From assembly GCF_024748615.1 (NCBI RefSeq), contig NZ_CP087168.1, forward strand, positions 2,728,001 through 2,792,000: DNA of 64,000 nucleotides. Direction: 5' to 3'. A model generated the notes under the pieces. The model saw nothing but the letters and a program-made list of their open reading frames with translations. It ran no database searches and was not told the origin of the DNA. This DNA comes from Pseudomonas sp. B21-048 (GTDB lineage: Bacteria > Pseudomonadota > Gammaproteobacteria > Pseudomonadales > Pseudomonadaceae). Below, in pieces: positions 1,326-26,096 of the stretch. The number at the start of each line of letters is the position of its first letter. The stretch's first letter is position 1. The position numbers and the translations under genes are program-made.

Positions 1326-1339
1326 TTGATCTGTATCAA
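1326..1339. promoter_or_regulatory. FNR/Anr box, perfect (TTGATCTGTATCAA)
   Basis: Exact match to TTGAT-N4-ATCAA. It is placed to drive the leftward genes (start 1194): a possible -10 (CGATTG, 1297-1302 on the minus strand) lies 33 bases from the box centre, the spacing of class II activation. Confidence 0.75.
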
Positions 1340-1406
1340 TGTAGGGGGAGACTGCTGATGGTGTCCGACGTGTGGTCACGTCAATGGGCGCCCAAAGCCC
1401 GGATTC

Positions 1407-1420
1407 TTGACCATGATCAA
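1407..1420. promoter_or_regulatory. FNR/Anr box, one mismatch (TTGACCATGATCAA)
   Basis: One base off the consensus. A CAGTCT hexamer at 1443-1448, 32 bases from the box centre, could be the -10 of a rightward promoter for the gene at 1586. Confidence 0.6.
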
Positions 1421-1585
1421 CCTTTCGACTGTTATCCAGGCGCAGTCTGTATTGATTCATGAAACGTAATGCGCCGCTTTTATTTGGCGGGCAGAAGAAA
1501 TCGCCATACACAGTAAGACATGTGCAATCTGTTAGCAGGGAGGCTGTATTCCCATCCCCGAATGGGGGCGAACAGAGGACTTGTG

Positions 1586-1825
1586 ATGATCATTGAAATA
1601 CATAAGCAGCATTCAAGGAATCGTTGGTCGGTGCATATGGACGCTTGGGTGGCGGGTTTCAATAGCCTTGGTGAAGCCGAGTCATTCGTCAGGCTGCTCA
1701 AGGCGCGGATTGATGCGCCTCATGACTTGCCGGCCATACGCGAAACTGCATTGTCTGGGCATCTATCGTTTGGCATATCACCCAGACCTCCAGTATCGCG
1801 ACGCTTGCACGCAGACAGTGCTTGA
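1586..1825 (+). CDS. Small hypothetical protein, 79 aa
   Basis: Open frame starting ATGATCATTGAA, about 10 bases after an AGAGGA ribosome-binding sequence. The first 50 residues (MIIEIHKQHSRNRWSVHMD onward) alternate basic and aromatic residues, WxVxMDAWVAGFNSxxEAESF, like small DUF2188-type proteins; the last 25 residues look less constrained, so the true end may have been lost by frameshift. A minus-strand terminator and no plus-strand gene follow. An upstream FNR/Anr box (1407) is consistent with the surrounding regulon. Function unknown; the reading frame is moderately supported. Confidence 0.4.
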   Translation: MIIEIHKQHSRNRWSVHMDAWVAGFNSLGEAESFVRLLKARIDAPHDLPAIRETALSGHLSFGISPRPPVSRRLHADSA

Positions 1826-1936
1826 TCCCTAGGGCAAAACCATCAGCCCTGCCATCAGCCGCAAGCGATAGGCTGAAAGGCAAGGCTTAGGAGTACGTCC
1901 TGAGTTAACGTAGAACGCACTCCGCGATAAAAAAAA

Positions 1937-2007: not shown

Positions 2008-2072
2008 CCTCTCCATTGCTTAGCTAGCTACACTGAAAATTAATACGACGTAATAAGTCGAGGTTGTACTTC

Positions 2073-2468
2073 ATGTACTGGTTCCGCCGTCACCGCCGAA
2101 GCCTATTGCACCTCACCCTCGTGGTATGGGTGTTAGCTGTGGCCGTGATGGCAATCCAGGGTTGTTTGGTGCAACCAAATCACAATATAGCCGCGCCACA
2201 CCATGCCGAGCAGTACGTAGTGGATGGGCATGCTCGCCATACCAGTGGTTGCCTTCAAAACTGTGAGGACACTGCCACGGCGATAAAACCTGCATTGCAG
2301 ACTCCAGCATTGGACCCCATCCAGTGGGCCGCCCTTTTGCTGTTAACTGCGGCAGTATTAATTGTGCTTAATCTCGAGGAAAAATCCTCTTTTGCCGCTC
2401 TTGCACTGAAGCGTCCCGCACCGCCAGAAGGCCCAGCTCGCCTGACTTTCGTCCGTTTCAACGATTAA
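2073..2468 (+). CDS. Hypothetical membrane protein at head of copper module
   Basis: 131 residues with an N-terminal membrane helix (about residues 12-30, LLHLTLVVWVLAVAVMAI), a periplasmic loop rich in His and Cys (HHAEQ, HARHTSGCLQNC) and a second helix near residues 85-105. Two Cys and several His in the loop suggest metal or redox chemistry. A TTG codon nine bases upstream is in frame, but ATG at 2073 is preferred. It is the first gene after a perfect FNR/Anr box and precedes a Met-rich secreted protein, so it probably belongs to the copper module. I do not recognise the family with certainty (it resembles short DUF2946-like proteins). Confidence 0.6.
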   Translation: MYWFRRHRRSLLHLTLVVWVLAVAVMAIQGCLVQPNHNIAAPHHAEQYVVDGHARHTSGCLQNCEDTATAIKPALQTPALDPIQWAALLLLTAAVLIVLNLEEKSSFAALALKRPAPPEGPARLTFVRFND

Positions 2469-2572
2469 TCCCTACCTCAGAGTGGCAGAGCACTGGTTGC
2501 TCCGTCCTGCTGCGCCGCTTTTTCGCGCCTCAGTTATTCCTGCTTATCCCCTCACAATCTCTGGAGTTCATC

Positions 2573-2980
2573 ATGCATAAACATTCGAAATTCCTTCTAG
2601 CTGCCGTCTTGACTAGCGGTGCACTCATGGCCTCTGCCGAGGATGCGCATCACCCAGCCGACGCACCAGGCGACGCAACTGAGAGCACAGCCCCAACGTC
2701 GACGGCCGTAACTAAAGCCATGACCGAGCAAATGGAGAAAATGCAGGCTGCACATGACAAAGCGGCAGCGGCTAAAACTCCCGCCGAGCGCCAGGCCGCC
2801 ATGCAAGAAGGCATGAAAGCAATGAGGGACAGCATGGCCATGATGAGCAAGGAGCAGACCGCAATGGGTTGTATGGGCATGTCTGGAGCTAAGGGCGGAG
2901 AAGGCAAAGGGATGATGGACATGATGATGCAGATGATGGAGCAGCAGTCGTCCATGATGGAAATGCCAATGAAAAAGTAA
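2573..2980 (+). CDS. Secreted Met/His-rich protein, probable periplasmic copper binder
   Basis: 135 residues. Residues 1-22 form a signal peptide (MHKHSKFLLAAVLTSGALMASA). The middle part, about residues 48-90, is a charged helix rich in Lys, Glu and Ala, and the C-terminal 45 residues are extremely Met-rich, with MxMM and MMDMMMQMM clusters plus two Met flanking the single Cys of GCMGM. Met clusters of this kind bind Cu(I) in periplasmic copper proteins. CTGGAG stands upstream of the start. The position just before the membrane methyltransferase, DUF5676 and CopA-type ATPase genes supports a role in copper buffering; this is inference from composition and context, as no named family is recognised. 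Confidence 0.75.
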   Translation: MHKHSKFLLAAVLTSGALMASAEDAHHPADAPGDATESTAPTSTAVTKAMTEQMEKMQAAHDKAAAAKTPAERQAAMQEGMKAMRDSMAMMSKEQTAMGCMGMSGAKGGEGKGMMDMMMQMMEQQSSMMEMPMKK

Positions 2981-3077
2981 ATGTGCGGTAGAGCTGCTGC
3001 AAATTACATGGCTCTGGTGCTGGCTGAGTGAATGCAGCCAGCACTCGTCTGATGTGCGTTGTTGAGGAGCGCCCACC

Positions 3078-3764
3078 ATGAACCATACTGAATCGGCCTA
3101 CGGTCTCTGGTCGCTGGTTATCATCAACTCATTGGTGTTTATCTTGTTCGCCTTCAGCTTCACCCGGCCCAAGACGAGCCGCGATTGGCGCTCCTTTGGC
3201 ATGTTCTCGGCGTTCCTGGTCGCGCTGTTTACCGAAATGTACGGTTTCCCACTGACTATCTACTTGTTGATGCCCTGGCTCACTCGCAACTTCCCTGGTA
3301 TCGACTTCCTCTCGCACGACGCAGGGCATTTGCTCGAAACAGTGATGGGCTGGAAGGTCAATCCGCACTGGGGGCCATTCCACATAATCAGCAATCTGCT
3401 GATCGCTGGCGGCTTCTGGTTATTAGCGGCCGCCTGGCGTGTACTCTACAAGGCCCAAAGTACTGGGCAACTAGCGCTCGATGGGCCTTATGCGCGGATC
3501 CGTCACCCACAGTACGCCGGCTTCGTGTTGATCATGTTTGGCTTTTTGTTGCAGTGGCCGACATTGATCACCCTAGTGATGTTTCCAATCCTCCTGGTGG
3601 TCTACGCCAAGCTGGCGAAGCGAGAGGAACGGGAGATGCTTACGCACTTCGGCGATACCTATCGCACTTACTGTCAAAAGACTCCGGCATTCCTGCCCTG
3701 GTCAGCCCCCCACAGTCCCAACACCCCTACTGGTGCCCCTCCAAGCTCAGGAAAACAGCCATGA
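3078..3764 (+). CDS. Membrane methyltransferase, isoprenylcysteine/phospholipid methyltransferase family
   Basis: 228 residues with about five membrane helices. The C-terminal half carries the signature of the ICMT/PEMT-type family: [13 protein letters not shown] near residue 137 (SAM-binding), followed after a helix by [18 protein letters not shown]. Such proteins methylate small lipophilic or thiol substrates at the membrane; in metal-resistance islands the substrate is unknown. The stop overlaps the next gene's ATG (ATGA), so it is co-translated with the DUF5676 protein and lies in the copper operon. Confidence 0.85.
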
Positions 3765-4030
3765 ACGCTCCTTGGAAAACCGGCATTTCTCTGGCTCTGA
3801 CCATGGCCATTTCCTACACCATCTGTGCGCTGCTCTATGCGCTATGGCCGGCGCAGGGTATCGCCTTTCTCAGCGCCTTGTTCCATGGACTCGACTTCGG
3901 TCGCCTTCAAGCTCCGCAAGACTACAGTGTGGCGACTTTCGTCGGGCCACTGCTGGTCTTGAGTGTATGGGGCGCGCTGGTCGGCACCTTGTTTGCGTGG
4001 CTGTCCGCCAAGCTCCATGGCAGGCCCTGA
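3761..4030 (+). CDS. DUF5676-family small membrane protein
   Basis: 89 residues, two hydrophobic segments (about 8-30 and 58-82), beginning [16 protein letters not shown]. The pattern matches DUF5676, a small family usually found beside heavy-metal P-type ATPases. It overlaps the methyltransferase stop by 4 bases and precedes the ATPase start by 25 bases, with an AGGAGG ribosome-binding site between. Function unknown; an accessory role in copper export is inferred from the operon. Confidence 0.8.
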
Positions 4031-4055
4031 TAGCCCCTTTGAGCAGGAGGCAACG

Positions 4056-6239
4056 ATGAACGAATCACACATGCAGCACAGTCAACATCAGCAGGCGCTT
4101 GCATCAGGGAAAATGGCGAAAGATCCGATCTGCGGGATGATGGTAGACAAGACCACAGCGTTATCACGAGAACGTGGCGGGCGCAGCTATTACTTTTGCA
4201 GCGATACCTGCTTGCGCACCTTCGAGTCGCCGGAAAGAGAACTGAAGGCGATGAAAACCCGCGTAACTATCGCCCTGACCGGTGTACTGGCCCTAGCGCT
4301 GCTGCGGGCGGGCGCCTTCATTGCACTCGCCGCCGGGGCCACACTGCTGACTTGGGTGCCGATCCCGGCGCTCCCTTGGTTCACGTGGGGTATATGGCTT
4401 TTCCTGTTGGTGACGCCGGTGCAGTTCATCGGAGGTTGGAGTTTCTATAAGGGGGCCTGGAACGCCATTCGCACCCGTAACATCAACATGGATTTTCTGA
4501 TCGCCCTCGGCACGTCGGTCGCCTATTTCTATAGTGTCGCGGTGTTGTTTTTCCCGGACGTCCTGCCGGTCAAGGTGGCCGAGCGCGACGTCTACTTCGA
4601 GGTGTCGGCGGTGATCATCGCCTTCGTACTGCTGGGTAGGTACATGGAGGAGATCATCAAGAAGAAGTCTTCAGCGGCAGTACGGCGCTTGCTTGATCTC
4701 AAACCAGCGATCGCGCATGTGATTCGTGATGGGCAAGAAGTCGACCTGCCTGCTGAACGCGTCATGGTCGGCGAGTTCCTGATAGTCAAACCTGGAGAAA
4801 AAATCCCCACCGATGGCGATGTAAGTGAAGGTCAGTCAACGGTAGACGAGTCCATGCTGACCGGCGAATCGATGCCCGTCGACAAGCACCCAGGCAGTCC
4901 GGTAATCGGAGGCACGCTCAATGGCAGTGGCGTGCTCACCTTCAAGGCGAGCAGGATCGGTGCCGATACCGCACTGGCGCAGATTATCAAGATGGTCGAG
5001 GAGGCGCAGACCAGCACAGCACAGATCCAGCGGTTGGCCGATCAGGTTACCGGCTACTTTGTGCCGGCAGTGGTAACGGTCGCGCTGCTGGCCCTGATGG
5101 GCTGGTCTCTTGCGGGGAGCTTTGCGCAGGGACTATTGGCCTTTATCGCGGTTCTGATCATTTCCTGCCCCTGCGCACTGGGCGTGGCGACACCCGCCGC
5201 ATTAATGGTCGGTGTTGGCAAGGGGGCCGATAACGGCATCCTTATCCGCGGTGGCGAAGTATTGGAGCGGGCAGAAAAACTGAGTACGGTGGTGTTCGAC
5301 AAAACCGGCACTATTACCCGAGGAGAACCCAACGTAACCGATGTGATCCCGCTTGGTACTGCGTTGGAAAACGAGGTCTTGATGCTCGCCGCCGCCGTGG
5401 AGTCTGGTTCAGAACATCCGCTCGGCGCAGCGATAGTGCGCGCCGCCCGGCATCGCGGCATCAGCTTGCCGAAAGCGATCGGCATCAATGGGATTGCCGG
5501 TCACGGCATCGAAGGCAGTATCGACAATCGCAAAATCTGGCTGGGCAACCGGCGTTTATTCGCCCGCCAAGGCATTTCGACCGAGGTTGCCGAGGAGCAC
5601 CTCATCAGCCTGGAAGCCGATGGCAAGACCGCGATGCTGGTCGGGGTCGGCGACAGCTTGCTCGGGGTGATTGCTGTCGCCGATACCATTAAACCTGAAG
5701 CGGCTGAAGCCGTTGCGGCATTGCAGGCAAGCGGCATCAAGGTCGTGCTACTGAGCGGCGACAACCATCGTACTGCGCAGGCAGTCGCGCGCCAGGTCGG
5801 CATTGAGCGAGTTATCGCCGAAGTCCTGCCGGACGACAAGGCCGCAGTGATCCGTCAATTACAAAGCGAAGGGCAGGTCGTGGCCATGGTTGGCGATGGT
5901 GTCAACGATGCACCTGCCCTGGCTACCGCGGACATCGGCATCGCCATCGGCTCGGGTTCCGATGTAGCCAAGGAAACTGGCGGCATCATCCTGCTCAAGA
6001 ACGATGTACGCGACGTGGTCACCGCGATCAAGCTGTCGCGCGCAACCATGGTCAAGATTAAACAAAACCTGTTCTGGGCATTCATCTACAACAGCATCGG
6101 CATTCCAATTGCGGCCTTTGGCCTGCTTAATCCCATCATCGCTGCCGCCGCTATGGCACTCAGCTCCTTGTCGGTAATCGCCAACTCCGCGCTGCTGAAA
6201 CGTGCCCGTATTGGCTTAAGTCGGGAGGCCAAATCATGA
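4056..6239 (+). CDS. copA: Cu(I)-type P1B ATPase with N-terminal YHS domain
   Basis: A 727-residue copper-exporting ATPase of the inner membrane. In order: a YHS metal-binding domain (residues about 20-60, DPICGMMVD ... YYFCSDTC), eight membrane helices, actuator motif TGES (269-272), transmembrane CPC (about 371-373) that marks the P1B-1 copper class, phosphorylation motif DKTGT (415-419), the P1B-specific SEHPLG (about 452) and the hinge GDGVNDAP (613). The usual N-terminal CxxC heavy-metal domains are replaced by the YHS domain, as in one well-known subgroup. I chose ATG 4056 because it follows GAGCAGGAGG and begins the YHS protein naturally; an in-frame ATG at 3963 lies inside the upstream gene. 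The stop overlaps the next start. Confidence 0.93.
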
Positions 6240-6454
6240 ATCGCGAAGTTTTAATTATCTGCCTCCTGGTGAGTGTTGTGGGTATCGCAGCGGTGGTTTA
6301 CCTGTTGGGGCTGACTGGCAAGTCGTTTGTCCTCGCAGCGATTTTCCTGCTGTGCCCGGTCTTGGTCGGGGTGCAACTTTTTCGCGGCGTCCGCCAATTT
6401 GATAAGGACATGGCCGAGGTTCATCGGCAACTGAAAAGGGAGAAACTGCCTTAA
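6236..6454 (+). CDS. Small two-helix membrane protein in copper operon
   Basis: 72 residues with two hydrophobic segments (5-24 and 29-50) and a charged C-terminal tail ([18 protein letters not shown]). It overlaps the ATPase stop by 4 bases (ATGA), so it is translationally coupled to it. No family recognised; an accessory subunit of the copper exporter is the simplest reading. Confidence 0.7.
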
Positions 6455-6606
6455 CACTTAATCCGACTCGCCCCCCTAAATTGCCGACGCGTTGGACAGG
6501 TAAACCAATGGTCTGGCTCGCTATGCTCACACCTACGAGCGTTCCAGCAAAATTGGAAGTGGCTGCGTTATGACCGTCCCACCCGTTTCCTCCAAGGAGT
6601 ACCGTC

Positions 6607-6900
6607 ATGAATCAACATAACTTGCCCCAGCACCGCGCAAGGGGCACCAACTGGTACTTTTTAGGCTTCCTTGTCATCGTCGGTTATTTCCTATTCACCG
6701 AGCACAGGGCCCACGTCATTCCGTATCTGCCATTCCTGCTATTACTGGCCTGTCCACTGATGCATTTTTTCATGCATCGTGGGCATGGCGGACATGAACA
6801 CGGTGAAAGTGGTGAACATAGCTGTGACCATCAGCACACCAGTCAGGAGCATGATGGTTTACCCGATAACAAGGCGAAATATCCCGATCGCCCTGTATAA
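6607..6900 (+). CDS. DUF2933-family protein with His-rich tail
   Basis: 97 residues: a short polar N-terminus, two hydrophobic segments (about 16-32 and 38-56), then a His-rich tail (HRGHGGHEHGESGEHSCDHQH) of the kind that binds divalent metals. The DUF2933 core (YFLFTEHRAHVIPYLPFLL) is clear. CCAAGGAG precedes the start. It closes the copper module; the role is probably metal sensing or buffering at the membrane, by inference. Confidence 0.82.
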   Translation: MNQHNLPQHRARGTNWYFLGFLVIVGYFLFTEHRAHVIPYLPFLLLLACPLMHFFMHRGHGGHEHGESGEHSCDHQHTSQEHDGLPDNKAKYPDRPV

Positions 6901-6964
6901 GCGATTCGTCGTATATGAGTCATGCCATGAAGCTAAGCAGTGGGTCAGGTCGGCTGTTGCCAAT

Positions 6965-6984
6965 TCCCTGAAACTGTTCAGGGA
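6965..6984. terminator. Hairpin after copper module
   Basis: Perfect 8-base arms TCCCTGAA / TTCAGGGA with a 4-base loop, about 65 bases after the DUF2933 stop. No U-run follows, so it may be an attenuating or mRNA-end-protecting hairpin rather than a classic terminator. Confidence 0.4.
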
Positions 6985-7086
6985 CGCGTGCGGCAAAACA
7001 GTCCACGCGATCAATGACTTTGAACACCTCTGATCGGGGGACCGTTGCCCGGTAGCCAAGGTTCCGGATCTATTCTGGAGGATTTC

Positions 7087-9450
7087 ATGAGTGATTTTCT
7101 GAGTGCTGAGCAGTTGAAAGGTATCGATGCCTACTGGCGGGCTTCCAATTACCTTGCCGTGGGCCAGATTTACCTCAAGGAAAACCCATTGCTGCGCACG
7201 CCCCTCAAACTGGAGCACATAAAGCCGCGGCTGCTGGGCCATTGGGGTACGACACCGGGACTGAACCTGATGTACGTTCACCTCAATCAGCTGATCAAAA
7301 CCTATGACCTGAACATGCTCTTCATCACCGGTCCTGGCCATGGTGGTCCGGCGATTGTTGCCCAGAGCTACCTGGAAGGGACTTACACGCAATTCGATCC
7401 TTCCGTGGAGCAGAACGTGAATGGGCTGACCCGGCTCTTTCGGCAGTTTTCCTGGCCTTACGGGCTCTCCAGCCACGTATCGGCGCAGATTCCCGGGTCG
7501 ATACACGAAGGTGGCGAACTGGGCTATTCATTGGCCCACGCCTATGGGGCGGCGTTCGATAACCCGGATCTGATCGTTGCCTGTGTGATCGGCGACGGCG
7601 AGGCCGAAACAGGCACATTGGCCGCCAGCTGGCACTCCAACAAATTTCTCAATCCGGAACGTGATGGGGCCGTGCTGCCCATTCTCCATCTTAACGGTTA
7701 CAAGATCGCCAATCCGACGGTGCTGTCCAGAATCAGCGAAGATGAGCTGTCGGCGCTGATGTATGGTTATGGGTACGACCCGTATTTTGTCGAGGGAGAC
7801 GATCCCGAGCAGGTCCATCAACTGCTGGCCAAAACCCTGGATACGATACTGCTGCAGATTTGCGAGATTCAGCGCGTCGCGCGAAACCGTTCACAGACCC
7901 ATGAGTTGGAGCGTCCGCTTTGGCCGATGCTGATACTGCGTACGCCAAAGGGCTGGACGGGCCCGAAATTCGTTGATGGCAAACAGGTTGAAGGTACCTG
8001 GCGTGCGCATCAGGTACCCCTCAGCGACTTCCAGCAACCGCTTCACCTGCTGCAGTTGGAACAATGGCTCAACAGCTACCGGCCTCATGAGCTGTTCGAC
8101 GCCAATGGTGCTTTGCTGCCCGCCATTGCTGCGCTGGCGCCAACCGGGCATCGGCGTATGGGCGCTAACCCCCATGGCAATGGTGGCCTGCTGTTGCAGC
8201 CGCTGGACCTCCCCAGGTTTGCCGATTACGCAGTGGACCTCCCTGCACCAGGTTGCCTGCGTGCGGAGGCAACCCGGGTATTAGGCGGCTTGCTCAGGGA
8301 TGTCATGAAGAACAACCTGCAACAGCGCAATTTTCGCGTGTTCGGCCCGGACGAAACCGCCTCCAACCGTCTCGATGCCATCTATGAGGTCAGCGCAAAA
8401 GAATGGATGGGCGCCCGGGAAAGTGAGGATGTCAATCTGGCCGCCGACGGTCGGGTGATGGAAATTCTCAGTGAACAGGTGTGTGAGGGCTGGCTGGAAG
8501 GTTATTTGTTGACCGGTCGTCACGGGCTGTTTTCCTGCTATGAAGCTTTCATTCACATCGTTGATTCGATGTTCAATCAGCATGCCAAATGGCTGAAAAT
8601 CGCCGCTGAAGTCCCATGGCGCAAACCGATTGCCTCACTCAACTATTTGCTCACGTCCCATGTCTGGCGACAGGACCACAATGGTTTTTCCCATCAGGAT
8701 CCAGGGTTCATCGACCATGTTGCAAACAAGAAATCCGACGTGGTTCGGATCTATCTGCCCCCCGATGCCAATTGCCTGCTGTCAGTGACTGACCATTGCT
8801 TGAGAAGTCGCGGCTACATCAATGTCATTGTCGCCGGCAAACAGCCCGAATGGCAGTGGCTGGATATCGATTCGGCCATTCGTCACTGTATGGCCGGGAT
8901 TGGCCGTTGGGACTGGGCCAGCCATAACGATGAGGACCCGGACGTGGTGATGGCGTGCGCGGGGGACGTTCCGACGCTGGAAACACTCGCCGCCGTGACA
9001 TTGCTGCGCGAGTACGTGCCGGATATCCGGATTCGGGTCGTCAACGTCGTGGACTTGATGGTGTTGCAGCCTTCATTTCAGCATCCTCATGGGCTGCAGG
9101 ACCGTGCGTTCGATGAACTGTTCACCGTCGACAAACCAGTGATTTTCGCGTTCCACGGATATCCGGCGCTCATTCACAAACTGGTCTATAAACGAAATAA
9201 CCACGCTAACTTTCATGTCCGTGGATTCAAGGAGGAGGGCGCAACCACGACACCGTTCGACATGGTAGTGATCAATAACCTTGATCGTTATCAGTTGGCA
9301 CTGGACGTCATTCAACGGGTTTCCCGCCTGCAAGGCCAGGTTGCAACAGCCACGGCGCGGTATTGGGAAACGATGGAGAAACACAAGCTCTACATCATCG
9401 AGCATGGGCAGGATATGCCCGAGGTTCTGCAGTGGCGCTGGACGTCTTGA
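7087..9450 (+). CDS. xfp: Xylulose-5-phosphate/fructose-6-phosphate phosphoketolase
   Basis: 787 residues, the usual length. Thiamine-diphosphate enzyme that splits xylulose-5-P (or fructose-6-P) with phosphate to give acetyl-phosphate and glyceraldehyde-3-P (or erythrose-4-P). Family motifs are intact: GPGHGGPA near residue 80, GDGEAETG (about 169, cofactor binding), [23 protein letters not shown] and [16 protein letters not shown] 7087 follows CTGGAGG by 7 bases; an in-frame ATG at 7045 has no such site. Acetyl-phosphate would normally feed acetate kinase for ATP, but the island's acetate kinase at 27.7-28.3 kb is broken, so a chromosomal Ack/Pta would be needed. Confidence 0.95.
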
Positions 9451-9467
9451 AAGTCCTTTACAAGGAT

Positions 9468-9481
9468 CTGATATAGATCAA
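9468..9481. promoter_or_regulatory. FNR/Anr box, one mismatch (CTGATATAGATCAA)
   Basis: Lies 18 bases after the phosphoketolase stop and 126 bases before the universal stress gene, with a possible -10 (GAATCT, 9504-9509) about 32 bases from the box centre. Confidence 0.65.
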
Positions 9482-15021: not shown

Positions 15022-15153
15022 GTCAATGGATTCATGTGGGTTATATATGAAGCATAGGTGTTGTGCACTTCGGCACGAATTCCGTTCGGAAGAGCTCCGG
15101 GAGCAATCGGCGAACGGGTAAAGCTCGGTTGACCCACCGCAAGCCCTTGATGC

Positions 15154-17140: not shown

Positions 17141-17154
17141 TTGATCTTTATCAA
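17141..17154. promoter_or_regulatory. FNR/Anr box, perfect (TTGATCTTTATCAA)
   Basis: Exact match, on the usp side of the divergent gap. A possible minus-strand -10 (GATAAA, 17111-17116) lies 34 bases from its centre. Confidence 0.8.
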
Positions 17155-17216: not shown

Positions 17217-17230
17217 TTGACCATTATCAA
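17217..17230. promoter_or_regulatory. FNR/Anr box, one mismatch (TTGACCATTATCAA)
   Basis: On the plus-strand side of the divergent gap, 58 bases before the start of the DUF4010 gene; CAGTCT at 17252-17257 is 31 bases from the box centre. Confidence 0.7.
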
Positions 17231-18546: not shown

Positions 18547-18560
18547 CTGACAAAGATCAA
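18547..18560. promoter_or_regulatory. FNR/Anr box, degenerate (CTGACAAAGATCAA)
   Basis: Two mismatches in the left half and a perfect right half; 70 bases upstream of the universal stress gene at 18631, the same placement as in its paralogues. Confidence 0.5.
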
Positions 18561-18630: not shown

Positions 18631-19554
18631 ATGTCGCAGATTCAGCGTTTACTGTTGATCGCCCCCCAATCCATGACCCGTACCCCGGCGTTCGACCGGG
18701 CCGCCGCGTTGGCCCGCGCGATGCAATCGCCGCTGCACATCGTGGCATTCGACTACTTGCAGGCCCTGGCCATCGCCGGCCTGTTTGCCCCCGAGCAAAT
18801 CGCCCAGGCCCGGGACGGTTATTTGAATACCCATCGGCAATGGCTTGTCGAACAGGCCGAATTGATGAAAAAACACGGCGTCGAGGTCACCAGTGAGGTG
18901 GTGTGGGTGCAGCATCCTTACGAGGAAATCCTGCGCTTCGTCAATGAGATGCCGCTGAGACTGATCATCAAGGATGCCCAGGAAGAGTCGGCGTTGAAGC
19001 GGGTTTTTTTCACACCGCTGGATTGGCAGTTGTTGCGCGACTGTCCGGTGCCGGTGCATCTGGTGACCAACGCCCTGAACCCGCGGCCACGCAACGTGCT
19101 GGCCATCGTCGATGTTTTGCGTAGTGAAGAGCAGGACCTGGTATTCAATGACCAGATTATCGACGCTGCCACCAAGCTGGCTGAACAGTGTGAGGCGCAG
19201 ATCGAGTTGGTACATGTGTATGACTGGACAGCCGTGTATGCCTTGGACATGGGCGTTGGCGCACTGCCGTTGGCCTCCGGTCTTTACGAAGCCATGGGCA
19301 CGGCGCAACACCAGGCGTTTACGGCGTTGGCCGAGCGTCACGGCGTGCCGTCGGAGCATCGGCACTTCATCGAAGGTGCGCCATTGCCGAGTATTTGCAA
19401 GTTCGCCGATGACCATCGCACCGATGTCATTGTGATGGGGACGGTGCAGCACTCGGGGTTGAACAAGCTATTGGGGACGACTGCCGAGCAGCTCTTGCAC
19501 CGAGCTCCTTGCAGTGTGCTGGCGATCAAACCCAACAGGCTGTTGCAATCCTGA
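18631..19554 (+). CDS. Tandem-domain universal stress protein
   Basis: 307 residues, two Usp domains; starts MSQIQRLLLIAPQSMTRTPA and ends LLHRAPCSVLAIKPNRLLQS. Close paralogue of the gene at 19921 (shared LLLIAP and HIVAFDYLQALA). ATG 18631 follows GAGGTGTCCC; an in-frame GTG at 18616 is less likely. Upstream FNR/Anr box, downstream inverted repeat. Probable role in survival during oxygen or energy limitation, by family and promoter. Confidence 0.9.
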   Translation: MSQIQRLLLIAPQSMTRTPAFDRAAALARAMQSPLHIVAFDYLQALAIAGLFAPEQIAQARDGYLNTHRQWLVEQAELMKKHGVEVTSEVVWVQHPYEEILRFVNEMPLRLIIKDAQEESALKRVFFTPLDWQLLRDCPVPVHLVTNALNPRPRNVLAIVDVLRSEEQDLVFNDQIIDAATKLAEQCEAQIELVHVYDWTAVYALDMGVGALPLASGLYEAMGTAQHQAFTALAERHGVPSEHRHFIEGAPLPSICKFADDHRTDVIVMGTVQHSGLNKLLGTTAEQLLHRAPCSVLAIKPNRLLQS

Positions 19555-19562
19555 GCGTTGAC

Positions 19563-19603
19563 TTGCCCCACGGCGAACCGTTGGCCGGTACGTCGTGGGG
19601 CAA
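19563..19603. terminator. Inverted repeat between convergent usp and GNAT remnant
   Basis: Perfect 10-base arms TTGCCCCACG (19563-19572) and CGTGGGGCAA (19594-19603). It sits 9 bases after the usp stop and 8 bases before the leftward GNAT remnant's stop, so it is probably a bidirectional terminator. Confidence 0.55.
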
Positions 19604-19610
19604 TCGGCTT

Positions 19611-19664
19611 TTACAACATATACAGACGATGAATGACCTGGCGGCTGTCGTCAGGATCATTGTG
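19611..19664 (-). pseudogene. GNAT acetyltransferase, last 17 codons only
   Basis: The minus strand reads HNDPDDSRQVIHRLYML and stop, matching HDPDDSRQVIHSLYL at the end of the intact GNAT gene at 22483-23046. The rest is missing; the sequence switches at about 19664 into the tail of a universal stress gene on the other strand. Confidence 0.75.
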
Positions 19665-19829
19665 TTTGTCGAGCAATACCTGGCGGATGTGGTGGTGATG
19701 AGCACGGATCGCGTGGGGATCGACCGGTTGATCGGCAGTAACACGGAGCGGGTGCTGTACTCGGTGCCGGGCAGCATTCTGGCGGTCAGGCAGCCGGGCT
19801 CGAGCGTCAGGCGGCGAGCCGATGGCTAG
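19665..19829 (+). pseudogene. Universal stress protein, C-terminal fragment
   Basis: 54 codons, FVEQYLADVVVMSTDRVGID to SVPGSILAVRQPGSSV, nearly identical in pattern to the end of the intact protein at 23272-24192 (FVEEYLVDVVVMGTVHRVGF ... SVPGSILAVKQPGS). The first 250 residues are gone. Together with the GNAT scrap it is a miniature of the intact GNAT/usp pair 3 kb to the right. Confidence 0.82.
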
Positions 19830-19840: not shown

Positions 19841-19854
19841 TTGATAAAAATCAG
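19841..19854. promoter_or_regulatory. FNR/Anr box, one mismatch (TTGATAAAAATCAG)
   Basis: 67 bases before the next usp start; GATACT at 19876-19881 is 31 bases from the box centre and suits a -10. Confidence 0.7.
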
Positions 19855-19920: not shown

Positions 19921-20838
19921 GTGAAAATTCAACGTTTGCTATTGATTGCCCCGACCGAAATGGTCCGCACCCCGGCGTTCGAACGAGCGCGAGCCCTGGC
20001 CTGTGCAACCGGTGCGGTGCTGCACATTGTCGCTTTTGATTATGTCCAGGCGTTGGCGGCGGCCGGCCTGTTTGACCATGACGCAATGGCCCAGGCGCGT
20101 GAAGGTTACTTGCAGGTTCATCGTCACTGGCTGGAGCAGCAGGCCCGGTTTCAACGATGCGAAGGCGTGCAGGTGAGCACTGAAGTGGTGTGGGCCAGAC
20201 CGACCCTGGCGCATCTGTTGGAGTACGTGAATGACTTCCATGCAGACCTGGTGATCAAGGACACACACCGCGTATCGGCACTCGATCGCGCCTTTCATCG
20301 GCCGCTGGACTGGCAGTTGCTGCGCGACTGTCCGGCCCCCTTGCACCTGGTCATAGATGCCACAAACCCCAAGCCGTTGAGAATACTCGCGAGCATCGAT
20401 TTGTCCCATCTGGAGGAGCTGACCCAAGGGCTCAATGACCGGATTCTCGACCTGGCTTCGAGCCTGGCCGAACCTTGTGGCGCCACCGTGCACCTGCTCA
20501 ATGTCAGCGGCTGGTCGGAGCTGGGGGAGGCTGAAGTGAACGTGCCGACCGCGACACTGGATGGCAGTTTGAGAGATGCGGTCAGCGATGCTCAGCTGGA
20601 GGCTTTTGAGGTGCTTGCCGAACGCTACGGAATAGAGAAACAACAGCGCCATTTGCTGCCCGGCACTCCCCCCGCGGTGATTGCCCGTTTCGCACAACAA
20701 TGTGCCTTCGACATGGTGGTGCTGGGAACGACCTACCATCGCGGGATCGATATATTCATCGGCAGTACGGCCGAAAGTGTATTGAACCGGTCACCCTGCA
20801 GCCTGACGATCGTCAAGCCATTGCCCCGGCTCGACTGA
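19921..20838 (+). CDS. Tandem-domain universal stress protein
   Basis: 305 residues with GTG start: MKIQRLLLIAPTEMVRTPAF, matching the paralogue at 18631 from its fourth residue. An in-frame ATG at 19906 is possible but adds residues absent from relatives; GAGG at 19908-19911 serves the GTG with good spacing. Second domain ends ESVLNRSPCSLTIVKPLP. Compared with paralogues the second domain's binding loop is TTYHRGIDIFIGSTAES. Promoter with FNR/Anr box directly upstream. Confidence 0.88.
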   Translation: MKIQRLLLIAPTEMVRTPAFERARALACATGAVLHIVAFDYVQALAAAGLFDHDAMAQAREGYLQVHRHWLEQQARFQRCEGVQVSTEVVWARPTLAHLLEYVNDFHADLVIKDTHRVSALDRAFHRPLDWQLLRDCPAPLHLVIDATNPKPLRILASIDLSHLEELTQGLNDRILDLASSLAEPCGATVHLLNVSGWSELGEAEVNVPTATLDGSLRDAVSDAQLEAFEVLAERYGIEKQQRHLLPGTPPAVIARFAQQCAFDMVVLGTTYHRGIDIFIGSTAESVLNRSPCSLTIVKPLPRLD

Positions 20839-20863: not shown

Positions 20864-20877
20864 TTGATAAAAATCAA
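20864..20877. promoter_or_regulatory. FNR/Anr box, perfect (TTGATAAAAATCAA)
   Basis: Exact match, 25 bases after the usp stop and 59 bases before the beta-CASP gene start, so it drives the latter. Confidence 0.8.
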
Positions 20878-20936: not shown

Positions 20937-22304
20937 ATGCAAATGACATTTCTCGGTGCTGCGGGCACGGTTACAGGCAGCAAGTACCTCCTGGAACATC
21001 GCGACCAGCATGTGCTGATCGATTGCGGCCTGTTCCAGGGCTATAAACAACTGCGCTTGCACAACTGGGACCCGTTCCAGCTGCCGGTTCGCGACCTCGA
21101 AGCCATTGTGCTGACCCACGCTCATCTGGATCACAGCGGCTACCTGCCGGTGTTGGTGCGCAACGGTTATCGCGGCCCGGTGTATGCCACGCCTGCCACC
21201 TGTGAACTGGTGAAAGTCCTGCTGCGCGACAGCGGCCGCTTGCAGGAAGAGGAGGCCGAGTTCGCCAATCGCCATGGCTTTTCCAAACATTCTCCGGCCT
21301 TGCCGCTGTATACCGAACAAGACGCAGAGCGGGCGTTGAAATTGCTGCGGCCGGTGCAGTTGCACCACCGGGTCGATATTGTTCCGGGAATGAGTATTCT
21401 GTTGCGCGGTGCCGGGCATATTCTGGGCGCAGCGACGGTGGAAGTCGTCGCCGATGGCGTCACGCTTGTGTTCTCCGGGGATCTGGGGCGGCCGAACGAT
21501 CCACTGATGTTTGCCCCGGAGACGATCGAGCAGGCCGATTATCTGCTGGTGGAGTCGACTTACGGTGACCGTCGGCATCCCGACGAATCCCCGGAGGATC
21601 AACTGGCCGAAGTCATCACCCGTACCGCGCTGCGCCATGGCATCACGCTGGTGCCATCGTTTGCGGTCGGTCGCGCGCAGTTGCTGATGTACCACCTGTA
21701 TCGCTTGCAACAGAAACACGCGATTCCTGACCTACCGATCTACCTCAACAGCCCCATGGCCACCGACGTCACGCGTTTGTATCAGCGCTTTCGCAGTGAA
21801 CACCGGTTATCGCTGGAAGAGTGCGAAGGCATGTGCCATGTCACGCGTTTTGTGCGCTCCACCAGAGACTCCATCGACCTGGACCAGCGGCGTACACCGG
21901 CGGTGATCATCGCCGCCAGCGGCATGGCCACTGGCGGGCGGGTGCTGCACCACCTCAAGGCGCTGGCGCCTAACCCGATCAATACGCTGCTGGTGCCGGG
22001 CTTTCAGGCGGGCGGCACCCGCGGCGCGCAAATCATCGCAGGCGCCCCGTCGGTACGTATTCACGGCAAAGACGTGCCGATCCGGGCCGAAGTAGTGCCG
22101 ATGCAAACCCTGTCTGCGCACGCTGACGCCGATGAAATCATGGCGTGGCTGCGCGGCTTCAAGCAGCCACCGAAACACACCTATGTGGTGCATGGCGAAC
22201 CCAATGCCTCGGATGTATTGCGCCGACGCATCAGCCTGGAGCTGGGCTGGTCGGTCTCGGTACCGGAGTACCGTGACAGCGTGGAACTGATGGGTTCTCT
22301 TTAG
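20937..22304 (+). CDS. Metallo-beta-lactamase-fold RNase, beta-CASP type
   Basis: 455 residues. Metallo-beta-lactamase core with THAHLDHSGYLP (zinc ligands HxHxDH, about residues 61-66), GAGHILGAATVE and SGDLGRPNDPL; a beta-CASP insert (FAVGRAQLLMYHL); and the C-terminal RNA-specificity motif VVPMQTLSAHADADEI plus VVHGEPNAS. Family members are RNA endo/exonucleases of the YSH1/RNase J-like class. ATG 20937 follows AAGGAAA; an in-frame ATG at 20919 is weaker. The FNR/Anr box implies a role in RNA turnover when oxygen falls, by inference. Confidence 0.92.
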   Translation: MQMTFLGAAGTVTGSKYLLEHRDQHVLIDCGLFQGYKQLRLHNWDPFQLPVRDLEAIVLTHAHLDHSGYLPVLVRNGYRGPVYATPATCELVKVLLRDSGRLQEEEAEFANRHGFSKHSPALPLYTEQDAERALKLLRPVQLHHRVDIVPGMSILLRGAGHILGAATVEVVADGVTLVFSGDLGRPNDPLMFAPETIEQADYLLVESTYGDRRHPDESPEDQLAEVITRTALRHGITLVPSFAVGRAQLLMYHLYRLQQKHAIPDLPIYLNSPMATDVTRLYQRFRSEHRLSLEECEGMCHVTRFVRSTRDSIDLDQRRTPAVIIAASGMATGGRVLHHLKALAPNPINTLLVPGFQAGGTRGAQIIAGAPSVRIHGKDVPIRAEVVPMQTLSAHADADEIMAWLRGFKQPPKHTYVVHGEPNASDVLRRRISLELGWSVSVPEYRDSVELMGSL

Positions 22305-22313
22305 TAAAGGCAA

Positions 22314-22444: not shown

Positions 22445-22484
22445 GTCCCTCGGCGGATCCAATGACGCCGAGGGACGCTTTTTT
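22445..22484 (+). terminator. Rho-independent terminator facing right
   Basis: Perfect 11-base arms GTCCCTCGGCG / CGCCGAGGGAC, 10-base loop, then GCTTTTTT. The T-run overlaps the stop codon of the leftward GNAT gene, so it stops rightward transcription before it runs antisense into that gene. Confidence 0.85.
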
Positions 22485-23046
22485 ACAGATAGAGGCTGTG
22501 AATGACCTGACGGCTGTCATCGGGATCGTGGCGGGTCTCGAAGCCCAGGGCTTGGGCCAGATCACGCATGGGGGCATTGCTGGCGGCGTCGACGGAATAC
22601 ATCTGGCGAAAACCGTTCTTGCGCGCGGCCTTGATCAAGTGCTCCATCAGCGCCGTTCCCAGGCCCAGATGCTGGTACTCGTCAGCAACCGTCACGGCGC
22701 ATTCACACTCATGGTCGCCGGTGGCGGCATAGCGGCTGACACCGATTTCAATCAGCTGGCCATTGTCGTGAATCAGGGCGATGTAGGCCATTCGCTTCTT
22801 GCCGTCGACATCCATCAACTGGTCGAGCATGGCCTTGCCGGGCTCATTGACTTGCGCCAGAAAGCGCATGTGCCGCGACTCCGGGGACAGGCGTTTGATA
22901 AAGGCGTATTCACGTTCGCGGTCTTTCTCCGCCAGCGGTCGGATCAGCACATGGCGGCCGTCCCTGAGCCCTTCAATCCAGTACTGTCCGGTGACGGCGG
23001 CGTAAGCGGCTGCGGCTCTGTCGTTATGATCTTTAACAGTGAGCAT
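22483..23046 (-). CDS. GNAT-family N-acetyltransferase
   Basis: 187 residues. Acetyl-CoA-binding motif EYQHLGLGTALMEHLIKAAR near residues 132-151; N-terminal HVLIRPLAEKDREREYAFIK resembles the GNAT domain of Pat-type protein acetyltransferases. Substrate unknown. ATG 23046 (MLTVKDHNDRAAAAY) follows GGAG by 10 bases; an in-frame ATG at 23106 sits in the promoter. Divergent from the usp gene at 23272, with an FNR/Anr-like palindrome on its side of the gap. The 3' end of a lost copy is at 19611. Confidence 0.88.
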   Translation of the reverse strand: MLTVKDHNDRAAAAYAAVTGQYWIEGLRDGRHVLIRPLAEKDREREYAFIKRLSPESRHMRFLAQVNEPGKAMLDQLMDVDGKKRMAYIALIHDNGQLIEIGVSRYAATGDHECECAVTVADEYQHLGLGTALMEHLIKAARKNGFRQMYSVDAASNAPMRDLAQALGFETRHDPDDSRQVIHSLYL

Positions 23047-23136
23047 GGTGCAATTCTCCATTCTGGATTGAAGGGCTTGCGCGTCGCAACGAATCACGCG
23101 GTTCATTTCTTTTTACGCCGCTGGTGGCGCTTGAAT

Positions 23137-23150
23137 CTGATCTGGATCAG
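23137..23150. promoter_or_regulatory. FNR/Anr-like palindrome (CTGATCTGGATCAG)
   Basis: Symmetrical, with the outer base of each half changed; placed for the leftward GNAT gene. Confidence 0.5.
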
Positions 23151-23183: not shown

Positions 23184-23197
23184 CTGATGTAAATCAA
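23184..23197. promoter_or_regulatory. FNR/Anr box, one mismatch (CTGATGTAAATCAA)
   Basis: 75 bases before the usp start; CAATCT at 23221-23226 is about 33 bases from the box centre. Confidence 0.65.
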
Positions 23198-23271: not shown

Positions 23272-24192
23272 ATGGGTCAATATCAACGTGTGTTGCTGAT
23301 CGCCGACCGAACCCTTTACCAGTCCCCAGCCTTGCTGCGTGCCGTTGCCCTCGCCAAGGCCAGCGGGGCGGCGCTGGATGTGCGGGCGTTTATCGAGCCG
23401 GCACCGATCATCCATTTGTGGGAGGAAAAAACCGATGAGGCGGAGTACCAGCGCTATCTGCGCCGCTATCGCCGCTGGATGGCGGAAGAAATCCAGCGCC
23501 TCAGCGGTGAGGGATTGAAAGTAAGCGTGGAGGTGGTCTTCACCACTCATCCATTACTGGACATCTTGAGGTGCGTCGAAGAACTCAAACCCGACCTGCT
23601 GATCAAGGACGCTACGTTGGAGCCGCTGCTCAAACGTGTGTTCATCACCCCTCTGGACTGTCACCTGCTGCGCGAATGCAGGGTGCCGGTGCACCTGGTC
23701 AATCAGGCCCGTTACGGTTTGCCGCACCGGATCGTGGCGGCAGTGGACCCGTTCGACCCCTCGACGCAAATCAGTGGCCTCAACGACACCATCATTCAAT
23801 CGGCCAATGCACTGGCCCTGCAATGTGATGCACCGCTGCATCTGCTGTATGCGTATGACTTGTCGCCGGCCTTCAATGGCGATGCGCCTCTGGCTAGCGG
23901 CGGGTGGAATGTGGACTTCATGGAGGAGCTGCGGCAATCCCTGCATCAGGCGTTTGTCACCCTGGCTGATCGTTATGGCGTGCCGCCAGAGCGCCGACAT
24001 TTCATCATGGGCCTGCCGGTACCGGTGCTGAGTGAGTTTGTCGAGGAGTATCTGGTCGATGTGGTGGTGATGGGCACCGTGCATCGAGTGGGGTTCGATC
24101 GGTTGATCGGCAGCAATACGGAACGGGCCCTTTACTCGGTGCCGGGCAGTATTCTGGCGGTCAAACAGCCGGGGTCGCTCGTCAGGGGATGA
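23272..24192 (+). CDS. Tandem-domain universal stress protein
   Basis: 306 residues, two Usp domains. Starts MGQYQRVLLIADRTLYQSPA, ends LYSVPGSILAVKQPGSLVRG. Of the paralogues it is closest to the gene at 9607 in its first domain and to the remnant at 19665 in its last 50 residues. ATG 23272 is preferred to the in-frame ATG at 23233. Its 3' end overlaps the convergent alcohol dehydrogenase by 11 bases, so there is no terminator between them. Confidence 0.9.
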   Translation: MGQYQRVLLIADRTLYQSPALLRAVALAKASGAALDVRAFIEPAPIIHLWEEKTDEAEYQRYLRRYRRWMAEEIQRLSGEGLKVSVEVVFTTHPLLDILRCVEELKPDLLIKDATLEPLLKRVFITPLDCHLLRECRVPVHLVNQARYGLPHRIVAAVDPFDPSTQISGLNDTIIQSANALALQCDAPLHLLYAYDLSPAFNGDAPLASGGWNVDFMEELRQSLHQAFVTLADRYGVPPERRHFIMGLPVPVLSEFVEEYLVDVVVMGTVHRVGFDRLIGSNTERALYSVPGSILAVKQPGSLVRG

Positions 24193-25165
24193 GCACGATC
24201 GCCCCTTTGACCTGACCGGCCCTCAGGCTTGCCAGCGCCTGGTTGGCATCGTCCAGGGCGAAACAGGTGACGTCGCTGTGCACGGGCGTATGACGCAGCT
24301 CTGCAAAAAACGCCGTGCCGTCTTCGCGGGTCAGGTTGGCGACCGAACGGATGCTGCGTTCGCCCCACAGCAATCGATAAGGGAAGCTGGGGATGTCGCT
24401 CATGTGGATGCCCGCGCAAATCACACAGCCGCCCTTGACGGTGGCCTCCAGCGCCAACGGCACCAGCGCACCGACGGGGGCGAAGATCAGGCTGGCGTCG
24501 AGCGGATGCGGCGGCGGTTGATCCGAGGGGCCTGCCCATTCGGCGCCCAGGGTTCGGGCATAGGCCTGGCCCTCGTTGTCGCCCGGGCGGGTGAAGGCAT
24601 ACACCTGCTGCCCCCGGCCCCGCGCCACCTGAATCGCCAGATGCGCCGCCGCGCCGAAGCCATAAAGGCCCAGATGACGCGCCCCTTTGGCCATTTGCAA
24701 TGCGCGAAAACCGATCAGCCCGGCACACAGCAGCGGTGCGGCTTCGGCGGCCGAGAGCGCGTCCGGAATGGGGAAACAGAAATGGGCGTCGGCCACGGTG
24801 TACTCGGCATAACCACCATCCAGGTGACAGCCGGTGAACTGGGCCTGGTCACAGAGGTTCTCGCGGCCCGAGCGGCAGAATGTACATTCACCGCACGTCC
24901 AGCCAAGCCAGGGAACGCCGACGCGCCTGCCAACCCAGCCGGGCGCCACATCGGCACCCACCGCCGTCACCTCACCGACGATTTCATGGCCCGGCACCCG
25001 CGGCAGCACCGCTTGCGGTAATTCACCGTCCACCAGATGCAAATCAGTGCGGCACACGCCACACGCCAGGACTTTGATTAACAGTTGGTGTGCGTCGGGT
25101 GTCGGGATGGCACGCTCTTCCCGTTGCAGCGGCTGACCGGGGGCATGCAGAACCATGGCGCGCAT
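24182..25165 (-). CDS. Zinc-dependent alcohol dehydrogenase
   Basis: 327 residues, medium-chain dehydrogenase family. Catalytic zinc ligands in CGVCRTDLHLVDGE (about 36) and VPGHEIVGEV (about 58); structural zinc cysteines in CGECTFCRSGRENLC (about 90-104); nucleotide-binding region LGLYGFGAAAHLAIQVA near 165, where the usual GxGxxG reads GFGAAA. Interconverts alcohols and aldehydes with NAD(P), acting as a fermentative electron sink or in alcohol oxidation. It resembles Anr-controlled AdhA of P. aeruginosa. It lies downstream of the FNR-like regulator on the opposite side of a 35-base gap, same strand, so the two may be co-transcribed. Confidence 0.9.
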   Translation of the reverse strand: MRAMVLHAPGQPLQREERAIPTPDAHQLLIKVLACGVCRTDLHLVDGELPQAVLPRVPGHEIVGEVTAVGADVAPGWVGRRVGVPWLGWTCGECTFCRSGRENLCDQAQFTGCHLDGGYAEYTVADAHFCFPIPDALSAAEAAPLLCAGLIGFRALQMAKGARHLGLYGFGAAAHLAIQVARGRGQQVYAFTRPGDNEGQAYARTLGAEWAGPSDQPPPHPLDASLIFAPVGALVPLALEATVKGGCVICAGIHMSDIPSFPYRLLWGERSIRSVANLTREDGTAFFAELRHTPVHSDVTCFALDDANQALASLRAGQVKGAIVLIP

Positions 25166-25199
25166 GACGACTCTCCAAAAGCCTGTGCACCGTAGGGCG

Positions 25200-25946
25200 T
25201 CAGAGGGGTGACTGCCGGTGACAGCCGGCGACCAGTTGCTTGAGCCCGTCCAGATTCAGGACTTTGACGTTACGCCCGGCAATCTCGACCAACCCCTGAT
25301 CCCGCAGATGAGCGATGCCCCGGCAGATGGTTTCCAGGCGCAGGCCCAGATACGAGCCGATCTCTTCACGGCGCATCTTCAGCACAAAGTCTCTAGACGA
25401 GTACCCGCGAATGCTCAGCCGTTGCGATAGGTTCAGCAGGAAGGCTGCCAGGCGTTCATCGGAGTTCATGTTGCCCATCATCATGAGCAGGCTGTGATCA
25501 CGCACGATTTCCCGGCTCAGGAGCTTGTTCAAGTTGTGTTGCAGTGAGGGCAGTTCCTGGGCGAGTTTCTCCAGTTGGATGTAGTGCAGGGGGCAGACTT
25601 CGCTGTCCTCAAGGGCAAAGGCACTGCAGGCGTGCCGATCGTCGCTGATGGCATCCAGACCGAGCATCTCGCCGGGTATCTGAAAACCGGTCACCTGCTC
25701 GCGGCCGTCGACCGACAGCATGCTGGTCTTGAATGAACCGATGCGTACCGCATACAGCGAGCGCAACGGATCACCGGCCCGGTACAGGGCGGCACCTTTT
25801 TTAATCTTTACCCGCTGAACGATCAGGGTATCCAGCCGCTCGACCTCCTGGCCGGTCAAGCCGATCGGCAGGCACAACTCCAAGACGCTGCAATTGGAGC
25901 ATGCGGCCTTCAGATAATGATGTTGGTATGGCCGGGTTTCAGGCAT
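25200..25946 (-). CDS. FNR/Anr-family oxygen-sensing regulator (paralogue)
   Basis: 248 residues. N-terminal CSNCSVLELC (two Cys of CxxC plus one) and a further Cys in HACSAF (about 108) supply the four ligands for a 4Fe-4S cluster, so it should sense oxygen, unlike DNR which lacks them. A cAMP-type sensor domain (GAALYRAGDPLRSLYAVRIG) and a dimer helix precede a Crp-type helix-turn-helix, REEIGSYLGLRLETICRGIA. In E. coli FNR the recognition helix reads E-T-I-S-R; here the Ser is Cys while Glu and Arg are kept, so TTGAT recognition is likely. ATG 25946 gives the family start; an in-frame ATG at 25997 is in the leader. A perfect FNR box upstream suggests autoregulation. Confidence 0.9.
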   Translation of the reverse strand: MPETRPYQHHYLKAACSNCSVLELCLPIGLTGQEVERLDTLIVQRVKIKKGAALYRAGDPLRSLYAVRIGSFKTSMLSVDGREQVTGFQIPGEMLGLDAISDDRHACSAFALEDSEVCPLHYIQLEKLAQELPSLQHNLNKLLSREIVRDHSLLMMMGNMNSDERLAAFLLNLSQRLSIRGYSSRDFVLKMRREEIGSYLGLRLETICRGIAHLRDQGLVEIAGRNVKVLNLDGLKQLVAGCHRQSPL

Positions 25947-26082
25947 GGTAAAGGCCCTTAACAGAGGATTTAAGCATAGTTCGGATAATGGACTCACTCG
26001 GGTGCTCTATCGGGAGCATCGACGAGTGGGGGGCTTGGCAGTTGTTCAAGCCAGCATAGAGCCGGACGGGCGGCGTAAGAGC

Positions 26083-26096
26083 TTGATGTAGATCAA
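26083..26096. promoter_or_regulatory. FNR/Anr box, perfect (TTGATGTAGATCAA)
   Basis: Exact match upstream of the FNR-like gene. On the minus strand a TATGCT hexamer near 26053-26058 lies 33 bases from the box centre, fitting an activated (autoregulated) promoter. It could also serve a rightward start at 26168. Confidence 0.8.

Follow-up and report, generated by a model that had tools for sequence, protein, structure and literature searches.

We analysed a 64,000-nucleotide stretch of the Pseudomonas sp. B21-048 chromosome (NZ_CP087168.1, positions 2,728,001 to 2,792,000), here called the window, whose left part carries an island of stress genes preceded by boxes of the FNR/Anr type. The motif TTGATN4ATCAA was scanned with up to two mismatches in the window and up to one in the whole genome (5,714,883 bp, one contig), and shuffled sequences and the pattern read backwards served as controls. 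A sequence-only reading of the window had listed 13 such boxes between positions 1326 and 26096. All 13 were recovered, five of them exact, six with one mismatch and two with two mismatches.

At the left end an exact box (1326–1339) lies 138 bp before the gene ahead of YeeE (minus strand) and 187 bp before open reading frame (ORF) 1520 (plus strand), which also has a one-mismatch box 106 bp upstream (1407–1420). The exact box 1994–2007, with the −10-like hexamer TACACT, stands 63 bp before 2064, the first gene of a plus-strand module (2064–6900) that we take to be copper-type; it encodes small proteins, an ICMT-like protein, a DUF5676 protein, a YHS/P-type ATPase (4056–6239) and a DUF2933 protein. 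A phosphoketolase gene (XFP, 7087–9450, plus strand) follows with no box just upstream. One-mismatch boxes lie 132 bp before the tandem universal stress protein (Usp) gene Usp1 (box 9468–9481, gene 9607–10491, plus strand) and, at 12247–12260, between the small heat shock protein gene Hsp20 (11499–12041, minus strand) and a metal P-type ATPase with a hemerythrin-like C-terminal tail (12444–14721, plus strand), which occupies two overlapping frames and looks broken. Downstream are decayed, stop-containing fragments of a second copy of the FNR-type regulator that resides in the island (14754–15033, minus strand; 54% and 76% identical), and the C-terminal part of a cation ATPase (15276–16061, plus strand) overlapped by a BON-domain ORF (15189–15713, minus strand).

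Usp2 (16114–17034, minus strand) is separated from an MgtC/DUF4010 membrane protein gene (17288–18526, plus strand) by an exact box (17141–17154) and, 64 bp ahead of the latter gene, a one-mismatch box (17217–17230). Usp3 (18631–19554, plus strand; nearest NCBIfam model UspE, below its cut-off) has a two-mismatch box 77 bp upstream (18547–18560), which relatives show unchanged or little altered. For Usp4 (19921–20838, plus strand) the box has one mismatch, lies 73 bp upstream (19841–19854) and is accompanied by GATACT at the −10-like position; for an MBL-fold beta-CASP RNase-like protein (20937–22304, plus strand) it is exact and lies 66 bp upstream (20864–20877). Two boxes stand between a GNAT acetyltransferase gene (22483–23106, minus strand) and Usp5 (23272–24192, plus strand): a two-mismatch box 37 bp before the former (23137–23150, −10-like TAAAAA) and a one-mismatch box 81 bp before the latter (23184–23197, −10-like TGCAAT). 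A zinc alcohol dehydrogenase (ADH) gene without a box of its own (24182–25165, minus strand) sits directly behind the gene of the resident FNR/Anr-type regulator (25200–25946, minus strand), which starts at 25946 or further up (a longer reading begins at 25997). The exact box 26083–26096 lies 143 bp before the regulator, whose −10-like TATGCT sits 24 bases past the box. Beside Usp3, the end of the short ORF 19509–19829 resembles the C-terminal end of Usp5, and the ORF is probably a remnant.

Gene starts were set by hand from the translations and decayed stretches were counted as intergenic. On this gene list all 13 boxes are intergenic, bearing out the placement described in the sequence-only reading, against an intergenic share of 17.9% of 1326–26096. 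The spacing of the −10-like hexamers was likewise confirmed: over 14 gene-oriented flanks of the 13 sites, the match to TATAAT peaked on average 21 bases past the box, or about 31 bases from centre to centre (P=0.002 by random shifts). Single sites vary, with weak hexamers at that distance for 1407, 17217 and a few others. Judged from sequence, the mean distance is that expected of an FNR class II promoter, with the box centred near −41/−41.5.

The window contained 61 sites with at most two mismatches, compared with 20.8 ± 5.5 in shuffled sequence. Genome-wide counts were 25 for exact sites and 333 when up to one mismatch was allowed (backwards pattern, 0 and 22). The interval 1326–26096, 0.43% of the genome, held 5 of the 25 and 14 of the 333 (five exact and nine one-mismatch), where the remaining genome predicts 0.09 and 1.4; box density, which the earlier reading had proposed to compare with the genome average, is therefore far above it. 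When 25 sites were scattered at random, five fell together in some 24.8-kb stretch in 1 of 5,000 trials, and 14 of 333 did so in 0 of 5,000. The degenerate form YTGAYN4RTCAR gave 15 matches in the island and 16 in 400 kb of the same genome (20 stretches of 20 kb). Three further one-mismatch sites of the island (9281, 9628 and 24103) fall within genes and probably reflect chance. The impression that the rest of the window lacks boxes held for exact sites, with none in 26097–64000, and was slightly overstated for one-mismatch sites, of which there are three (41428, 57606 and 59753) with G+C-rich centres. No site with at most one mismatch was found in the 20 kb left of the window. The genome has a second box-rich region, with five exact sites over 69 kb (3363968–3432838 of the chromosome). 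A 20-kb part of it (3400001–3420000) contains one of these five, four one-mismatch sites and denitrification genes, namely those for two cytochrome d1 proteins, a COX1-type subunit, NnrS and a Crp/Fnr protein. Denitrification genes are a known target of FNR/Anr-type regulators.

Related loci were collected in one scan of named genomes and comprise the best 80 of at least 557 confirmed places, 39 in Pseudomonas and 41 elsewhere, the latter mostly betaproteobacterial. Around the regulator we tallied Usp, GNAT, ADH, MgtC, MBL, XFP, ion channel, Hsp20, BON and other island genes. All but one of the Pseudomonas loci (38 of 39; the exception, L055, had none) carried at least one of them within about 10 kb, in changing order. 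In the 779 kb of the Pseudomonas loci there were 77 exact boxes and 160 with one mismatch, and in the 757 kb of the other loci around FNR 9 and 63; the backwards pattern gave 0 and 3 over all 80. Box centres in the Pseudomonas loci were AT-rich (G+C 0.30 for exact and 0.40 for one-mismatch boxes), compared with a G+C of 0.69 at the centres of one-mismatch sites in the genome sample. The regulator was found in 42 of 199 genomes of the genus at E values up to 1e-60, and the island is therefore accessory.

Boxes also recurred upstream of the orthologues of island genes. In the 39 Pseudomonas loci a box (at most one mismatch, or YTGAYN4RTCAR) lay 20–250 bp upstream of 184 of 270 orthologue starts, compared with 3 of 270 control stretches, which were of equal width, 290–520 bp past the start, and may reach beyond short genes. 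Matches starting after query residue 25 or less than 260 bases from the end of a locus were left out, and here, as for the −10 counts, flanks sharing their first 40 bases were taken once. Boxes preceded the orthologues of Usp3 (32/33), GNAT (23/25), Usp5 (18/21), MBL (12/14), Usp2 (9/9), Usp4 (12/16), Usp1 (11/15), XFP (12/17), BON3 (9/13), Kch (8/17), ORF 1520 (3/3), the metal ATPase (3/5; second piece 0/4) and the regulator itself (17/28), and were absent for ORF 952 (0/1). In many of 23 rows compared, the Usp3 box had the uneven form CTGAY-N4-ATCAA. The −10 peak recurred at the same distance in 473 flanks of the 39 loci, with 0 of 2,000 shifts as high. The 41 other loci, which served as a positive control for spacing, peaked at 22 bases past the box.

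The resident regulator has cNMP-binding and Crp-type helix-turn-helix domains (Pfam PF00027 and PF13545) and aligns over 226 residues to solved chains named FNR type regulator (E about 5e-53). Four cysteines, C33, C36, C42 and C135 in the numbering of the longer reading, fall opposite the cluster cysteines of solved FNR proteins and are invariant in ten aligned sequences. The protein shares 39% identity with this genome's core Anr (C1:1885887–1886579). In the recognition helix its sequence is LRLETICR and that of core Anr LAVETVSR, so that Glu and Arg are kept and Ser becomes Cys; the Cys occurs in 36 of 39 Pseudomonas loci and in none of the 41 others. In a tree of the rows used, which lacked two of the 41 non-Pseudomonas rows (L099 and L125), rows with a stop in the translated match being excluded, the Pseudomonas proteins formed one side of a well-supported branch (99/99).

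A literature search, which makes no claim of completeness and draws on excerpts of the papers cited, gave two reports as the nearest (PMC4505428 and PMC7801951). Pseudomonas putida PP_3287 (FnrC) has Cys in place of Ser at the same helix position and carries an oxygen-reactive [4Fe-4S] cluster that is slower to react than that of ANR; preliminary shift assays showed its binding to an FNR box, and its over-expression drove a class II FNR promoter, less so in air (PMC4505428). In P. putida KT2440, PP_3289–PP_3294 encode an acetyltransferase, Usp proteins, an MBL protein and a membrane protein (PMC7801951), so that, as in the window, a Cys-for-Ser regulator lies near these gene families. The window island is larger than the FnrC cluster as described there and adds copper-type, metal ATPase and phosphoketolase genes. 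Because it shares the Cys-for-Ser helix and has neighbours like PP_3289–PP_3294, the resident protein is classed here as an Anr paralogue that is FnrC-like, its likeness to PP_3287 being taken from the published description of the latter.

The second precedent is the lxa locus of Burkholderia cenocepacia (BCAM0275–BCAM0323), whose FNR protein is BCAM0287 and in whose genome an FNR-box-like motif was reported at many genes induced by low oxygen (PMC4505428). The lxa cluster responds to low oxygen (PMC9733578, PMC6127331) and is associated with persistence when oxygen is limited (PMC6127331). Compared by gene families, both lxa and the window island have Usp, heat shock, BON, zinc ADH, MBL and FNR genes (PMC6127331, PMC4505428). 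The DUF1488, nitroreductase-like, phosphate acetyltransferase-like and phosphofructokinase genes that the excerpted accounts assign to lxa had no match among the 30 window ORFs scanned. The lxa cluster also carries a two-component system; none was found among the same 30 ORFs.

Two plasmids extend the comparison to other Burkholderiaceae. On pOLGA1 of Paraburkholderia phytofirmans (L161, 185000–232000, 47 kb) the FNR, MBL and BON proteins are 48, 54 and 35% identical to those of the window, and on a plasmid of Cupriavidus oxalaticus (45 kb) they are 45, 55 and 43% identical. The former stretch holds six exact and eight one-mismatch boxes and the latter six and seven, with the backwards pattern absent from both. 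Beside Usp genes, pOLGA1 adds to what is seen in the window an ATP synthase gene set, the arginine deiminase pathway and two-component genes. Since the two plasmids were picked from the overlap of the FNR and MBL searches, they are no random sample. Herbaspirillum is reportedly the subject of a further study, on three Fnr proteins. The pOLGA1 gene list resembles that of lxa as excerpted (PMC6127331). The core Anr regulon of Pseudomonas uses the same box: in a study of five species, 11 boxes were common to all and preceded other genes, and the passages of that report at hand describe no such island (PMC6588701); nor do those of PMC2864759 contain anything on one.

Taken together, these observations make it very probable that the locus is an accessory low-oxygen survival island that is activated by FNR-type proteins and brings its own sensor. 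Under declining oxygen, an FNR-family protein whose [4Fe-4S] cluster is intact would bind TTGATN4ATCAA centred near −41 and activate the adjacent Usp, RNase-like, acetyltransferase, Hsp20, metal and copper-type ATPase genes and others. The resident FnrC-type paralogue, itself preceded by a box, would probably form a loop or a cascade below core Anr. The benefit would be survival of energy stress once oxygen runs out, as suggested by the gene families and by the persistence associated with lxa in B. cenocepacia (PMC6127331).

The sequence-only reading had proposed a single regulon. Density, placement, spacing and the boxes of orthologues support FNR/Anr-type control, and some genes of the island have no box. 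Several observations weigh against a single low-oxygen island. No site with at most two mismatches lies ahead of the phosphoketolase gene (5489–7113) or in 26097–28400, which covers the ion channel and triple-BON protein (26241–27536, minus strand), a pair that adjoins the regulator in many relatives. Fewer than half of the orthologues of ADH (6/18), MgtC (6/19), Hsp20 (3/7) and AckA (0/5) are preceded by a box. Both the footprint counts and the P value of the −10 peak in relatives are optimistic, because the loci are not independent and divergent genes share boxes, and because starts in the relatives were extrapolated and the coding controls differ in composition. AT-rich box centres are no general mark of such sites, since the betaproteobacterial boxes have a centre G+C of 0.64–0.66. 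Finally, the acetate kinase piece (27771–28304, minus strand; profile positions 201–356 of 392), the cation ATPase piece, the two-frame metal ATPase and the regulator fragments indicate that the island is partly decayed.

Among the alternatives, the one that stands up best, and that we regard as possible at rather less than even chances, is that the stretch is no single regulon and instead a patchwork in which a core stress module (about 9–26 kb) adjoins a separately acquired copper/YeeE module (1–7 kb) with its own boxes. Of the 39 Pseudomonas loci, 2 had YeeE (L081 and L082) and 2 had copper-ATPase-like matches (L082 and L124; 29–45% identical) no more than about 10 kb from the regulator, counts that are expected to be low because in the window these genes lie 19–25 kb from the regulator and 10-kb loci would miss them. 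Gene order is shuffled between species, and in 2008–9467 the sole site with at most one mismatch (9281) is inside a gene. However, on the C. oxalaticus plasmid the box-dense 45 kb with FNR, MBL, Hsp20, BON and metal ATPase genes also contains DUF2933 and the copper ATPase (80% identical), and the three left-hand boxes of the window are all intergenic. A patchwork origin is in any case compatible with joint control.

Rather unlikely, in our estimate, is that core Anr alone reads the boxes and that the resident paralogue is a passenger or a minor player. Core Anr is present in the genome and the boxes match the general FNR consensus. From the tables we counted by hand the genomes with a strong regulator match (E up to 1e-90; 30 of 199) and those with Usp3 at 65% identity or more (21 of 199, two with an internal stop). 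Of the 21 genomes with Usp3, 5 had no strong regulator, and 4 of these 5 kept a box (at most two mismatches) 64–82 bp before Usp3; one of them, G059, has a weak, broken regulator match. A model in which the resident regulator alone acts is weakened by these four. Conversely, 14 of the 30 strong regulators occur without such a Usp3. In P. putida at native levels, ANR gave 8550 and PP_3287 184 Miller units on a test promoter, a comparison qualified by a PP_3287 transcript about fivefold lower than that of ANR (PMC4505428). The kept boxes and the stronger activity of ANR in P. putida favour core Anr. On the other side, strong regulators are found in 16 of the 21 Usp3 genomes compared with 30 of 199 overall (Fisher P about 1e-11, inflated by kinship), and the regulator has its own box in 17 of 28 orthologues. 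This linkage of regulator and box-bearing genes favours the resident protein as activator. In the cell, core Anr, the paralogue or both may bind, and an operator shared by the two would be the simplest reconciliation.

It is improbable that the sites serve Dnr, which responds to nitric oxide, or another FNR-like protein that is no oxygen sensor. This genome does have a Crp/Fnr protein beside its denitrification genes, and in P. aeruginosa the boxes of Anr and Dnr were called indistinguishable (excerpt of PMC6588701); yet the island's own regulator has all four cluster cysteines, and lxa in B. cenocepacia is a cluster responsive to low oxygen, as cited above. Chance matches in an A+T-richer acquired stretch are very unlikely: parts of the first 10 kb do have a lower G+C (0.53–0.59), but 10–26 kb (0.57–0.62) resembles the genome sample, and shuffles, the backwards pattern, whole-genome counts, intergenic placement, −10 spacing and the boxes of relatives all speak against it.

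If the locus is such an FNR-controlled survival island, it might further be a portable regulon, an extension that we put forward tentatively, at somewhat below even chances. Horizontally moving stress genes would carry their own oxygen sensor, with a set point unlike that of core Anr (less oxygen-sensitive, as for PP_3287), together with operators that the host Anr can read, and so would be functional on arrival in a new host; stretches organised in this way, with differing sets of genes, are seen again in Pseudomonas and on plasmids of Burkholderiaceae. The box, the regulator type and the gene families are already known, as are two close precedents, the FnrC cluster and the lxa locus. To these the present analysis adds the count of boxes clustered over the island and recurring upstream of its genes in many Pseudomonas, and it compares the FnrC cluster and the lxa locus side by side, setting the Pseudomonas clusters next to a locus studied for persistence in limited oxygen. 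It offers a testable answer to the question of Ibrahim and others (2015), namely that the FnrC-type protein moves together with a stress island rich in boxes, and that this island could be the main regulon of the protein. The 39 named Pseudomonas loci are available for following the joint movement of regulator and operators.

With regard to mobility, a short ORF (29760–30008, minus strand) resembles the C-terminal end of a tyrosine integrase, a weak match (PHROG E=1.8e-6, no Pfam match). Scans of the window with Rfam at the gathering threshold and for tRNAs gave no matches, and thus no tRNA insertion site is shown. CstA, the right-hand neighbour, lies 10 kb from the regulator in the window. 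Its closest homologue (96–97%) is 569, 522 and 629 kb from the regulator in the genomes G005, G070 and G149, and in three others (G033, G135 and G188) a homologue is on a contig other than that of the regulator. G204 has a single copy (94%, lacking the first 27 residues and perhaps a paralogue), 3.2 Mb away. The left-hand neighbour, which we take to be decarboxylase-like, has a close homologue (87%) in one of seven genomes, there 1 Mb from the regulator. A fixed chromosomal site for the island is unsupported; chromosome rearrangement could account for part of these distances.

An OmpR-type response regulator gene, with no box of at most one mismatch nearby, lies just left of the window. It is followed by what is presumably only the end of a histidine kinase, judged by motif. 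The pair (L163:231–1134) begins some 870 bases outside the window and reaches 34 bases into it, directly left of the YeeE-type genes, and possibly marks the left edge of an insertion. The left flank also holds a gene for a YobI-like P-loop NTPase (L031:10253–14221) and, left of the island, one for a large protein that we take to resemble mannuronan epimerase (L031:3241–8067).

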